Shown one piece after another: positions 6,913 to 28,927 of a stretch of DNA of 37,493 nt (position 1 is its first letter; every line of letters begins with the position of its first letter). The DNA lies in the NCBI GenBank assembly GCA_012519835.1, contig JAAYPJ010000013.1, positions 1 through 37,493 of the forward strand, given 5' to 3'. Source of the DNA: Clostridiales bacterium. Its GTDB lineage: Bacteria > Bacillota > Clostridia > Peptostreptococcales > Natronincolaceae. Below the pieces are notes generated by a model. It was not told where the DNA came from, ran no database searches, and saw only the letters and a program-made list of their open reading frames with translations. The translations under genes and the position numbers were made by a program.

Positions 6913-7217
6913 AATAAAAAAAACCCCATCCCCTAAGGGACGAAGCTTCTATTCCGTGGTACCACCCTAATGACTCGCCACAAACAAATGACAAGCCACT
7001 CTATGATATTAACGACATCAGCCGATAAAGCCTACAATCTCGGTTTAAGACTTCAGCTTTATGACTCCGGAGTGAATTTCATCTATACTTGTTTTAGGAT
7101 AATCCCAGCCTGTGTCATCCTTTCTCTTTTAAAACAGTCTATAGTCTACTTTTCTCCATCAACATCTTTAATCTATTTTATTTGTTCATCTATTATCAAT
7201 TTTCTATCGATAGTCTT
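6913..7217 (-). promoter_or_regulatory. T-box leader, tRNA-Phe-responsive, of pheST
   Basis: The minus strand carries the T-box core AGGGTGGTACCACGG at 6968-6954. It is followed by a G+C-rich terminator hairpin (about 6945-6923) and a run of T residues. Upstream lies a Stem I region containing GAAATTCACTCCGGAG, in which the specifier triplet TTC (Phe) sits at 7076-7074 followed by A. The same frame aligns with the thrS leader (GAAA, triplet, ACYCCGGAG), which supports the assignment. Uncharged tRNA-Phe should stabilise the antiterminator and allow pheST transcription. Confidence 0.92.
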
Positions 7218-13386: not shown

Positions 13387-13640
13387 AAAAAATCCCCCAT
13401 CCTAAAACTGATAGGACGGGAGATACATTCCCGCGGTTCCACCTAAATTGATCTTTCCACTTTAATGATTATAACGAAATCACCGGTTATCCTTTCACCC
13501 TTAAGTTACTAGGTAACAGCTCCGGGGTAGTTTTCAATTATCCATATATAAAAATACTTACAGCCAAGGTACTTTCTCTCTTGATACTGGGCCCAACCTA
13601 CTCTTCCCCTTCAATACTATACAATATTAAATTATCCTAT
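13387..13640 (-). promoter_or_regulatory. T-box leader, tRNA-Thr-responsive, of thrS
   Basis: The T-box core AGGTGGAACCGCGG lies at 13444-13431. It is followed by a terminator hairpin (13420-13394) with TAGGAT-type pairing and a T run (13393-13387). In the Stem I region the specifier loop reads GAAA, ACT, ACCCCGGAG. Aligned with the pheS leader this places the Thr codon ACT at 13531-13529. Uncharged tRNA-Thr should antiterminate thrS. Confidence 0.92.
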
Positions 13641-24803: not shown

Positions 24804-25862
24804 CTAGTATAATAATAATAACTTTTCTTTTTTAAAATGTACGTAAACAGGTTCATCTAAATATATCTCATCCGGGGATTTTTTGGAGTTGATTTCCAAA
24901 TATATATGAGATTTATAAGAGGTGTCTACACCCCTTTCATGCCTTAACACCAAAGTACTGGAAAAAGGATTTTCAATCCTGTTTATTATTTTCATCGGGA
25001 AGGTATTTTCGGGTACCATACCATTGGATATATCCAAATTACTACCGTATATGCCTATGTATTTAAGGTCATCTTGTACCATTTCCTCCGATTCCAATTC
25101 CAAACCCCAGTCTATGGCATAAATCCTATTTCTGCCTATTTTTCTCGCCTTGGAAATATTGTTACATCCGATTAGTTTAGCTGCATCTACATTTCCGGGT
25201 CTATTAAATATTTCTTGTTTGTCACCGATTGATTGAATTTTACCATGATTATAAATAGCTATTTTGTCAGCTATTCTGTAGACCTCATCTTTATTGTGGG
25301 ATACATACAGAGCGGTCTTTCCATAATTATGCAGGGTATCAATTAACTTTTGTTCCAGCTTCCATCGTAAATGTTCATCCAGTGCCGAAAAAGGTTCGTC
25401 CAACATCAAAATTTCAGGCTCATTTACCAACATCCTGGCCAGTGCTGTTCTCTGTTGCTGCCCACCGGATAATTCATGCGGGTAGTTATTTTCCAAGCCC
25501 TCTAAAGAGAATTCCTTTATTTTTTCCTTTATTATTTTGTCTTTGTTGGGGCAATTTTTAGGAATGGAGACAGCAATATTCTCTTCCAACGTCATATTGG
25601 GGAACAAGGCATAACTTTGAAATAACAGACCCACATTTCGCTTTTGGGGAGGAAGATTTATCTTTTTTTTACTGGAAAACAACGTTTTATCACCCAGAAC
25701 GATTTCCCCCTCGTCAGGTTTTTCAATCCCCGCTATACATTTTAGGGTAACGGTTTTACCGCAACCCGAAGCCCCAAACAAGGCCAGGGTTTCTTTGTTG
25801 GTTTCTATCCGGATGTCCAATGTAAAATCCCCTAATTGCTTTTTTATATCGATATATAGCAT
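24804..25862 (-). CDS. modC: Molybdate ABC transporter ATP-binding protein
   Basis: This 352-residue ATPase has Walker A GASGCGKT (about 30-37), the signature LSGGQQQRTALAR, Walker B ILMLDEPFSALD and the H-loop VSHNKDE. The C-terminal 110 residues form a regulatory region resembling a mop/TOBE-type domain but divergent. It energises uptake through ModB. The ATG follows the modB stop by one base (TAA-T-ATG), indicating coupling. It is the last gene before a strong terminator. Confidence 0.92.
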   Translation of the reverse strand: MLYIDIKKQLGDFTLDIRIETNKETLALFGASGCGKTVTLKCIAGIEKPDEGEIVLGDKTLFSSKKKINLPPQKRNVGLLFQSYALFPNMTLEENIAVSIPKNCPNKDKIIKEKIKEFSLEGLENNYPHELSGGQQQRTALARMLVNEPEILMLDEPFSALDEHLRWKLEQKLIDTLHNYGKTALYVSHNKDEVYRIADKIAIYNHGKIQSIGDKQEIFNRPGNVDAAKLIGCNNISKARKIGRNRIYAIDWGLELESEEMVQDDLKYIGIYGSNLDISNGMVPENTFPMKIINRIENPFSSTLVLRHERGVDTSYKSHIYLEINSKKSPDEIYLDEPVYVHFKKEKLLLLY

Positions 25863-25863
25863 A

Positions 25864-26538
25864 TTAACTCACTGCCTTTCTAACTTTAGCAAATTGATTT
25901 TTGTCAAACCTGTTCATAATAATCATAGCAACGAAGGAAATTACGGCCATAACAAGTACCCATTTATAAGCCAAGTGCCTATTACCCGCCTGGACAGCAG
26001 TATAAACCGCCACCGACATAGTTTGAGTTTTTCCGGGTATATTACCCGCCACCATGATTGTAGCCCCAAATTCCCCCAGTGCTCTTGCAAAAGCCAATAC
26101 AGTACCGGCCATTATACTGGGAAAACTGTTGGGCAACATTATCTTTAAAAATATCTTATGTTCTGATAAACCGAGTGTTTTGGCAACATGGATAATATCT
26201 CTGTCTAATTGTTCAAAAGCGCCCCTGGTGGTCCTGTACATCAGGGGCAGGGAAACCACAGTAGATGCTACAACGGCGGCCGTCAGAGAAAAAACGACGG
26301 ACTTGTCATACAGGGCCAAATATTTTCCCACTATACTGTTTTTCCCCAGGGAAACCAGGAGAAAAAAACCTACAACGGTAGGCGGCAAAACCAAGGGAAG
26401 AGTTAATACCCCGTCTATCAGCCCTTTGAACTTATTTAATTTTGTAACCAGGTATGCAACGTATATACCGATTAAAAATGTGATGAAAGTTGCAGTGATT
26501 GAAACTTTTAATGATATTAGTAAGGGAGAATAGTCCAT
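25864..26538 (-). CDS. modB: Molybdate ABC transporter permease
   Basis: This 224-residue permease has about five or six membrane segments. The coupling-loop EAA-like motif HVAKTLGLSEHKIFLKIMLP is followed by FARALGEFGATIMVAGNIPGKTQT, which is highly characteristic of ModB. It forms the transmembrane channel with ModC. It lies 21 bases after modA. Confidence 0.95.
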   Translation of the reverse strand: MDYSPLLISLKVSITATFITFLIGIYVAYLVTKLNKFKGLIDGVLTLPLVLPPTVVGFFLLVSLGKNSIVGKYLALYDKSVVFSLTAAVVASTVVSLPLMYRTTRGAFEQLDRDIIHVAKTLGLSEHKIFLKIMLPNSFPSIMAGTVLAFARALGEFGATIMVAGNIPGKTQTMSVAVYTAVQAGNRHLAYKWVLVMAVISFVAMIIMNRFDKNQFAKVRKAVS

Positions 26539-26559
26539 TATAATTCCTGCTTTCTTTGT

Positions 26560-27381
26560 TTATTTCATTGAAAATCCGTATTTTTTAAATATGGATGCGG
26601 CTTTTTCCGTGGATAGGAAATCCAAAAATGCTTTGGATTCATCAGGGTGTTTGCTATCCTTTACTACCCCAACCGGATAAGTTACCTCCTTGTGGCTACC
26701 GTCAGGGGCTTCGGTTACAATAGTCACTTTGTCTGTTGTAAAAGCATCAGTTGCATATACGATACCACAATCAACTTCTCCATTTTCAACCCAAGTGAGG
26801 ACCGATCTGACATCGTTTCCCAATACCAGTTTTGATTTAATTTTGTCCTTTAGGTCTAAATGTGCAAATATCTCCTCGCTATATTGGCCCACCGGTACAT
26901 TTCCCGGATCCCCTATGGCGACTTTTTTAATGTCCTTGTCCCCTAAATCCTCAAAAGAAGAAATTTTTAAATCGCTGTCCTTGGGAATTATGAGTACTAC
27001 CTTATTTACCAACAAGGTTTTGATTGTATCATCCAACATTAAGCTGCCTTCTTTCAGAGCTGTCATTTGTTTTTGAGCAGCCGACATAAATATATCAACA
27101 GGCGCTCCTTCTTCTATCTGGGCTTGCAAGGAACCCGAACTGCCAAAAGTAAAATTCAAGTCGGTTTCGGGACCTACAGCCTTATATTCTTCCTTCAATT
27201 CTCCCATTACATCGGTCAAACTGGCAGCCGCAGATACTAACAGTTCCACCTTTTCCTTTGGTTGGGTGTCGACCACAGCATCATCACCCGGGGCATCCGA
27301 ATCTTTGGTTTTACAACCGAACAAGATAGTTACCGATAAAATTGTTACTAATAAAATGATAGATACTCTTTTAAACTTCAT
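26560..27381 (-). CDS. modA: Molybdate-binding lipoprotein
   Basis: This 273-residue protein has a lipoprotein signal ending in ILFG-C23 (lipobox), so it is anchored outside the membrane. The mature part carries the ModA oxyanion-binding motifs LLVSAAASLTDVM (near 48-60), FGSSGSLQAQIEEGAPVDIFMSA and GDPGNVPVGQY. It binds molybdate or tungstate and delivers it to ModB/ModC; the metal preference cannot be read here. AGGAGG precedes the ATG. It follows the repeat array at 27477-27591. Confidence 0.95.
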   Translation of the reverse strand: MKFKRVSIILLVTILSVTILFGCKTKDSDAPGDDAVVDTQPKEKVELLVSAAASLTDVMGELKEEYKAVGPETDLNFTFGSSGSLQAQIEEGAPVDIFMSAAQKQMTALKEGSLMLDDTIKTLLVNKVVLIIPKDSDLKISSFEDLGDKDIKKVAIGDPGNVPVGQYSEEIFAHLDLKDKIKSKLVLGNDVRSVLTWVENGEVDCGIVYATDAFTTDKVTIVTEAPDGSHKEVTYPVGVVKDSKHPDESKAFLDFLSTEKAASIFKKYGFSMK

Positions 27382-27476
27382 GTTAATCCTCCTTTAAACT
27401 ATAGTTAAACTGATGTCAAATCATTATTGAAACATTTCAAGACGCTAGTATTAAAATAGAAATAATTGCCTCAAGT

Positions 27477-27591
27477 GATGGCTCTCGGGCAAGAGGAACG
27501 GTAATGATAATCCCCGCGCAAATGAAAGGGTAATTATAATTCCCAAGCAAAAAAACGGCGGTGATTACTCTCAAGCGAGAGTAACGGTCAT
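27477..27591. repeat. Four-copy 29-bp degenerate tandem repeat upstream of modA
   Basis: Four contiguous units lie at 27477-27505, 27506-27534, 27535-27562 and 27563-27591 (29, 29, 28 and 29 bases). On the plus strand a loose consensus is GAT-n2-TCYC-n2-GCAA-n4-AACGGTAAT, with the start and end best conserved. Most units can form a small hairpin; the strongest is TTACTCTC/GAGAGTAA in unit four. Degenerate partial units appear to flank both sides (27461-27476 and about 27597-27622). There are no spacers, so it is not a CRISPR. Its place between a ModE-like regulator and modA suggests an operator array or leader hairpins (inference). Confidence 0.75.
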
Positions 27592-27640
27592 GTTTTAAAA
27601 TCGCTCATAGAGCGAACAGAATTAAGTATATTTAAGTATA

Positions 27641-27997
27641 TTAGAAATTATAAAAATGCTTGTTATAAAGCCTTTCTGCTTCTGTGTTCAATTCATGTAC
27701 AAATGCCTTATATCTATTCAGCAGGTCTTCACCCTTTTTTGTAAGCCCGGAACCGCCCCCACCTTTGCCGCCAACTGTAGTCTCAAATAGGGCGAACCCC
27801 AACTCACCTTCTGCTTTTTTAATAATTCTCCATCCCTTGCTGGATGATAGATTCATAGTTTTATAGGCTTGGGATAAACTTCCCTTGCTTTGAACCAGTT
27901 CCATAATTTGGGCAACACCTGAACCGAAAACAGAACCATCAAATGTTATTTTAATTCTAGTATTAAAGTTTGATTTTTTACCACTATTAAGGACCAT
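27641..27997 (-). CDS. ModE-like winged helix-turn-helix regulator
   Basis: This 118-residue protein corresponds to the DNA-binding N-terminal domain of ModE. It reads GVAQIMELVQSKGSLSQAYKTMNLSSSKGWRIIKKAE (helix-turn-helix), then GGKGGGGSGLTKKGEDLLNRY, the usual ModE wing with its glycine-rich turn. It has no C-terminal mop (molybdate-binding) domain, so it may respond to something else or need a partner. An in-frame ATG nine codons upstream exists (28024), but ATG 27997 has GGGAGAA nearby and is preferred. The gene precedes modA by 260 bases that contain the tandem repeat array, and probably regulates modABC. Confidence 0.85.
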   Translation of the reverse strand: MVLNSGKKSNFNTRIKITFDGSVFGSGVAQIMELVQSKGSLSQAYKTMNLSSSKGWRIIKKAEGELGFALFETTVGGKGGGGSGLTKKGEDLLNRYKAFVHELNTEAERLYNKHFYNF

Positions 27998-28060
27998 GCA
28001 GATTTCTCCCTTAACCAAATCCATAAAAATATTATAGCATAAGCAAAAAGTGATTGCACC

Positions 28061-28794: not shown

Positions 28795-28805
28795 GTCAGT
28801 TCTTG

Positions 28806-28913
28806 TTGTCAGCATTCTCCTTTCCACAATGGGAGGCATAAGGGTTTTCCCCCATACCCTAACGACCTGTATTTCATAAGCATGTGCCCGCAGAAACACC
28901 AGGTTCGGAGACA
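28806..28913 (-). promoter_or_regulatory. Molybdenum-cofactor (Moco)-type riboswitch
   Basis: The minus-strand sequence carries the conserved blocks of this class. CTCCGAACCTGG lies at the 5' side, and GCCTCCC, TGGAAAGGAG and TGCTGAC lie at the 3' side. Helices can be drawn by hand: TGTCTCC with GGAG/GACA (bulged), ACCTG with CAGGT, GTGTTTC with GAAATAC, and a long GG-rich arm with the CCCTTATGCC strand. It is followed by an intrinsic terminator and a methyltransferase-ModE-like-mod gene cluster. A covariance-model check was not possible. The ligand could be the molybdenum or the tungsten form of the cofactor. Confidence 0.85.
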
Positions 28914-28927
28914 TATTCTTTTTTTGT

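Follow-up and report, generated by a model that had tools for sequence, protein, structure and literature searches.

ModE of E. coli represses its own mod operon when the metal is plentiful. ModE proteins that consist of a DNA-binding domain only are widespread in Clostridia, and to our knowledge their metal sensing and binding targets are poorly known. The form of the E. coli ModE box has been given (PMC545781), and its clostridial form is CGTTAT-N12-ATAACG. In Desulfovibrio, where ModE likewise has the DNA-binding domain only, the site was found to be CGGTCACG-N14-CGTGACCG (PMC545781). Head-to-tail operator arrays made of direct repeats have been described for BldC, a MerR-like protein (PMC5859096), and in Geobacter metallireducens it was shown that ModE was lost and that the ModE sites then decayed (PMC2700814).

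Results

Four contiguous units of about 29 bp lie at 27477-27591 on the minus (modA-coding) strand, between a modE-like gene and modA, in the window, that is, the whole stretch of 37,493 nucleotides that was analysed (Table 1; units are numbered 1 to 4 in the direction of transcription). The unit consensus on the coding strand is ATTACCGTTNCTCTTGCNYGRGAGTTATC. The array, first proposed in a sequence-only reading of this DNA, proved to be real and far above shuffles, as its self-alignment score over offsets of 20-40 was 26, compared with 6.4 +/- 1.3 in dinucleotide shuffles (0 of 300 reached it; maximum 11), and no score among 578 other stretches of the window exceeded 21. At offset 29 the identity is 55%. 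TRF did not detect the array because the copies are too diverged. The units are contiguous and diverged and have no spacers, in agreement with the claim that the array is unlike CRISPR, and when the whole 1.63-Mb genome was searched with a unit model only the four array copies were found.

The four units are not equally preserved. Unit 1 carries the invariant bases of the conserved element described below, unit 4 keeps most of them (CCGTT..CTCT..GAGAG), being 76% identical to unit 1, and in units 2 and 3 they are lost, TCT/AGA included; the CCGTT start is retained in three of the four units. The same order was seen upon folding. The middles of the units had been said to tend to remain self-complementary, and this is strongly so in unit 1 (-10.8 kcal/mol, z -4.5) and weakly so in unit 4, while units 2 and 3 have no fold better than shuffles. 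Unit 1 holds the distance to the upstream hairpin, and unit 4 holds the distance to the conserved block downstream. Thus, the array is best seen as a single conserved control element followed by three tandem copies of its downstream half, eroded to various stages.

Table 1. Positions of the features of the mod locus, in the direction of transcription
Feature	Position	Strand	Remarks
Moco riboswitch	28802-28922	-	Upstream of methyltransferase-modE pair; RF01055, 61 bits
modE-like gene, DNA-binding domain only	27641-28024	-	TIGR00637, E 2.6e-13, below cut-off; HTH_1
Hairpin 1 (TCGCTC-TAT-GAGCGA), 5' part of element	27601-27615	-	Present in 9/9 members
Linker, hairpin 1 to TACTCT, A/T-rich	27584-27600	-	Exactly 17 nt, gap-free, 9/9 members
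Unit 1	27563-27591	-	CCGTTACTCTC-GCTT-GAGAG conserved; ModE-box-like dyad CGTTAC-N12-GTAATC at 27563-27586
Unit 2	about 27535-27562	-	Degenerate; 2-nt insertion; retains the CCGTTTTTTT half but neither the right half nor a hairpin; unit model 17.1 bits
Unit 3	27506-27534	-	Most degenerate copy; invariant bases of element lost; unit model 20.2 bits
Unit 4	27477-27505	-	Degenerate copy (CCGTTCCTCT..GAGAG); 22/29 identical to unit 1; unit model 20.9 bits
Block 3' of array, common to sister species (ATCACTTRAKGYAATTRTTTCTATTTTAATA)	27446-27476	-	Alignment with L029; putative role (promoter?)
modA	26560-27381	-	TIGR01256, E 6e-62
modB	25864-26538	-	TIGR02141, above cut-off
modC-like ATPase	24804-25862	-	PF00005; TIGR02142 below cut-off

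The gene string on the minus strand reads Moco riboswitch, methyltransferase, modE, array, modA, modB and modC. The riboswitch is preceded by a TTGACA-17-TATAAT-like promoter and followed by a terminator-like hairpin, and it is kept in the sister species. The true start of modE is likely the ATG at 27997, which follows AAGGGAG, and not 28024; the modE promoters of the clade have the form TTGCA[AT]-17-TATAAT, with GTGCAA-17-TATAAT in the window (28031-28059, minus strand). A perfect inverted repeat (TTGAAA-TG-TTTCAA, 27430-27443, minus strand) is found in the modA leader, and inverted repeats shortly before the modA ribosome site were also seen in other genomes, as CAGGAA-TTG-TTCCTG (L100) and ATCTAGAA-AAGG-TTCTAGAT (L135). 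Elsewhere in the window there are two T-box leaders (RF00230) at 6933-7171 and 13409-13623 on the minus strand. Identity of ModA to proteins of another order is about 60-68%, reaching 72% across part of the protein, whereas proteins from its own family but from other genera share no more than 54% with it; this closer match to another order suggests a horizontal transfer of the modE-modABC operon (24804-27381, minus strand).

Just upstream of unit 1, a further degenerate unit had been claimed at about 27597. This was found to be a separate conserved hairpin instead, and together with the 17-nt linker and unit 1 it forms an element that immediately precedes modA in nine genomes, which belong to three families. 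Relatives of the window's ModE (50-63% identical) are present in another order, and six of these related modE genes directly precede modA, with one element in each modE-modA gap, where its pattern is ATCGNCC-loop-GGNCGAT, an A/T-rich linker and then TTCGTTACTCTC-NNNN-GAGAG. A covariance model built from seven members, these six gaps and the window, found two additional copies (L135, 59.5 bits; L137, 49.9 bits). Each of them stands immediately 5' of modA, and modE in these genomes is located elsewhere and is not followed by an element. As the element was found blind before modA where modE is elsewhere, it therefore belongs to modA. The window copy was recovered by a model built without the window (27564-27618, 31.7 bits, E 4e-6 in the window).

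The sequence-only reading had called for a search of modA upstream regions in related Clostridia, and this revealed the element once in each of eight genomes of that other order. The element (E <= 2e-8) and the ModE clade (E <= 3e-40) were present in the same 8 of its 249 genomes, the next-best matches being at 3e-26 for ModE and at 3e-4 for the element. The covariance model found no second element in the rest of the window's genome, and there was no confident match for the element in 393 other genomes of the window's order. With the unit model no match, and so no array, was obtained in the eight other members, and some 40 additional loci with ModE or modA had no array either. Other genomes gave weak covariance-model matches (E 3e-4 to 1), which were attributed to chance, the best of them (L138) being a generic hairpin before an unrelated gene. 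It was also considered that the element might be a feature of the modE 3' end, which was rejected, as two members precede a modA that is not accompanied by modE, and the element is absent from two modE genes that have no modA beside them. An intrinsic terminator of modE was likewise rejected: no terminator was found, the tail being TTTTAAAA or AAAAAAA in the members, and the hairpin persists at loci that have no modE upstream.

Covariation in the hairpin stems, also suggested as a check, was measured in the nine members, and hairpin 1 was found to covary above both shuffled and slid controls. The outer TCG/CGA of hairpin 1 is invariant, its inner pairs vary together (CG, UA or UG) and its loop is 3-8 nt long. 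Five pairs of helix 1 show changes on both sides, and at the pair beside the invariant TCG/CGA four members have C-G, three U-A, two U-G and none C-A. Over the whole structure, including hairpin 2 (unit 1), 88% of cells were paired, compared with 33-46% when slid. The covariation score was 0.286 versus 0.159, and 0 of 500 shuffles reached the 0.286, with a favourable bias because the alignment had been fitted to the model. The variable loop speaks for RNA; the constant 17 nt and the stretch from the right arm of hairpin 1 through the end of hairpin 2, which is gap-free in 9/9 members, speak for DNA spacing. In one member (L107) the element follows the modE stop codon and precedes the modA ribosome site, and as the modA start comes only about 30 nt after hairpin 2, the element probably lies inside an operon transcript. 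Promoter scans gave candidates both 5' and 3' of the element. The promoter-like sites that precede hairpin 1 were strongest in L107 and reached 9/12 in the window, and a -10-like TATAAT or TATAAC that follows hairpin 2 (L100, L101, L103 and L135) would contradict transcription of the element together with modA. No Rfam 15 family scored above its gathering score at the array or element.

Other clostridial genera have a single palindromic box of the CGTTAT type beside a more distant modE, and in several of these the -35/-10 spacing sets the box over the -10. With a ModE-box matrix, the dyad of unit 1 ranked 7th of 37468 window positions, corresponding to a p of about 0.02 over the array. Its left half CGTTAC matches, and its right half GTAATC, which is poorly conserved, matches at 4/6. 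The other units scored worse, and a canonical E. coli-type ModE box in every unit was rejected, as only unit 1 scores. Half-site scores summed over the four units gave a p of about 0.07; the best half-site register is equal in units 1, 3 and 4 and shifted by 3 nt in unit 2, 2 of which are explained by the 2-nt insertion. All nine genomes that have the element directly before modA carry the same ModE clade.

A sister genome of the same genus (G001, locus L029) has kept the riboswitch, the methyltransferase and modA, its ModA protein being 85% identical, and has lost modE by a deletion running from near the modE start to just before the array, with remnants of the start region left. No ModE relative was found in this genome, which is 83% complete. 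One unit of array-unit length is present, 18/29 identical to unit 1 (10 transitions, 1 transversion), and its flanks, GATTTTAAAACAT and ATCACTT..TTTTAATA, are nearly intact and much better kept than the unit itself. Decay of the site alongside loss of ModE is seen in G001, in this one case only. Being a clean deletion that spares the modE start region and the modA promoter region, it amounts to a natural regulator knock-out. The sequence-only reading had named two outcomes that would speak against its proposal, a repeat found at unrelated places or one absent from close relatives that keep the operon. The outcome was mixed, as the genome has no copies of the unit scattered elsewhere, and the close relative with modABC has one eroded copy and has also lost modE.

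Discussion

We favour, with a probability of about one half, a ModE-linked control element of modABC whose 29-bp operator unit has been tandemly multiplied at this locus. Hairpin 1, the 17-nt linker and unit 1 would constitute the modABC control element of the DNA-binding-domain-only ModE clade, and we infer that the unit 1 dyad is the binding site of ModE, which would work with a separate sensor of molybdate or tungstate. Modelled on E. coli ModE at the mod operon, ModE would lower modABC expression when metal is plentiful. In the window's species the operator unit would have been multiplied in tandem to four copies, and the extra copies, which keep mainly a CCGTT-type half-site in one orientation, may be weak accessory sites at best and debris at worst. 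Of the array of regulator sites that had been proposed, what stands is that unit 1 belongs to a ModE-box-like element that is linked to the ModE clade and decays in the modE-less sister; the presence of one copy in the eight other genomes and the absence of the invariant bases from units 2 and 3 do not bear out a working four-site array. Several observations weigh against the ModE-linked element. Conservation is poor in the right half of the dyad, the invariant bases are missing from units 2 and 3, and the four-unit half-site sum is not significant; hairpin 1 covaries in an RNA-like manner with a variable loop, which is needless for a DNA operator, and inheritance of the operon as a whole could by itself explain the co-occurrence with ModE.

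It stands at even odds that the functional unit is single, made up of hairpin 1 and unit 1, and that units 2-4 are neutral slippage duplicates in decay, the array as such being inert. This is what would be expected from one copy in 8/8 other members, from units 2 and 3 that lack TCT/AGA and do not fold, and from the half-site test with its p of about 0.07, but units 1 and 4 are still 76% identical, with CCGTT..CTCT..GAGAG kept in unit 4 and the CCGTT start in 3/4 units, and the single unit of the sister, at 18/29 identity to unit 1, bears on the age of the array. Such a single functional unit is compatible with the ModE-linked element as far as unit 1 is concerned. We regard it as rather improbable that the element acts as RNA, with hairpins 1 and 2 forming in the leader of modA, or between the modE and modA cistrons of one mRNA, and setting the stability, processing or translation of modABC; the ModE-box likeness would then be secondary and units 2-4 would be non-folding copies. 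The five two-sided pairs of helix 1, the covariation and pairing above controls, the U-G pairs in place of C-A, the 3-8 nt loop and the probable transcription of the element in L107 all point in this direction, yet the gap-free linker and right arm through hairpin 2 are more typical of DNA spacing, the conserved unpaired CGTTA agrees with the ModE half-site, the element fits no Rfam family and there are nine sequences only. The series of leader hairpins that had been offered as the other possibility does not extend to units 2-4, and what remains of it is the conserved, covarying two-hairpin element formed by hairpin 1 and unit 1. Tandem units of near-constant length could also stem from a repeat of the dispersed or selfish kind (CRISPR-like, REP/BIME-like or a transposon end) that inserted by chance between modE and modA. 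With a unit that is unique in the genome, has no spacers and is conserved in place before modA across orders, this is scarcely credible, and a dispersed repeat or CRISPR is refuted for the window's genome and its relatives.

A further, unlikely possibility is that one stretch is read twice, as a pair of RNA stem-loops and as ModE operator DNA, with a copy number that changes between species, from one to four, and would tune molybdate uptake. If true, this would be a previously undescribed two-part modABC control element of Clostridia. The element provides a concrete conserved candidate target for one ModE clade, for which the loss of modE in the sister serves as a natural control and the window's species as an instance of a multiplied target. 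Operator evolution after duplication and after regulator loss thereby becomes directly testable on a 70-bp stretch.

Like known ModE operators (E. coli-type ATCGNTATATA-N6-TATATANCGAT; clostridial CGTTATACT-N6-AGTATAACG), the element is located before mod genes and beside modE, it has the half-site CGTTA, and the CG-to-CG spacing of the unit 1 dyad is N12. It differs from them in having CGTTACTCT instead of CGTTATACT as half-site, a weak right half, a covarying hairpin at a fixed distance 5' of it, and four tandem copies here and one in relatives. The Moco riboswitch (RF01055), one of which sits 1.2 kb upstream in the same gene string, shares the connection with molybdenum metabolism, but the array gives no match to it and the structure is unrelated. 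The situation in Desulfovibrio is similar in that a ModE with the DNA-binding domain only is accompanied by a diverged operator before molybdate transport genes, and the array units carry an ATNACCG/CGGTNAT edge resembling that site; however, spacing and core differ, and there is no inverted CGGTCAC pair in the window (PMC545781). Repeated half-sites in the same orientation recall the BldC arrays, but BldC is MerR-like and not of the ModE type, there is no sign that the window's ModE polymerises, and the extra units are eroded (PMC5859096). The sister species parallels Geobacter metallireducens in having lost modE and in carrying an eroded unit between preserved flanks, with the difference that here the whole of modE was deleted and only one operon is involved (PMC2700814).
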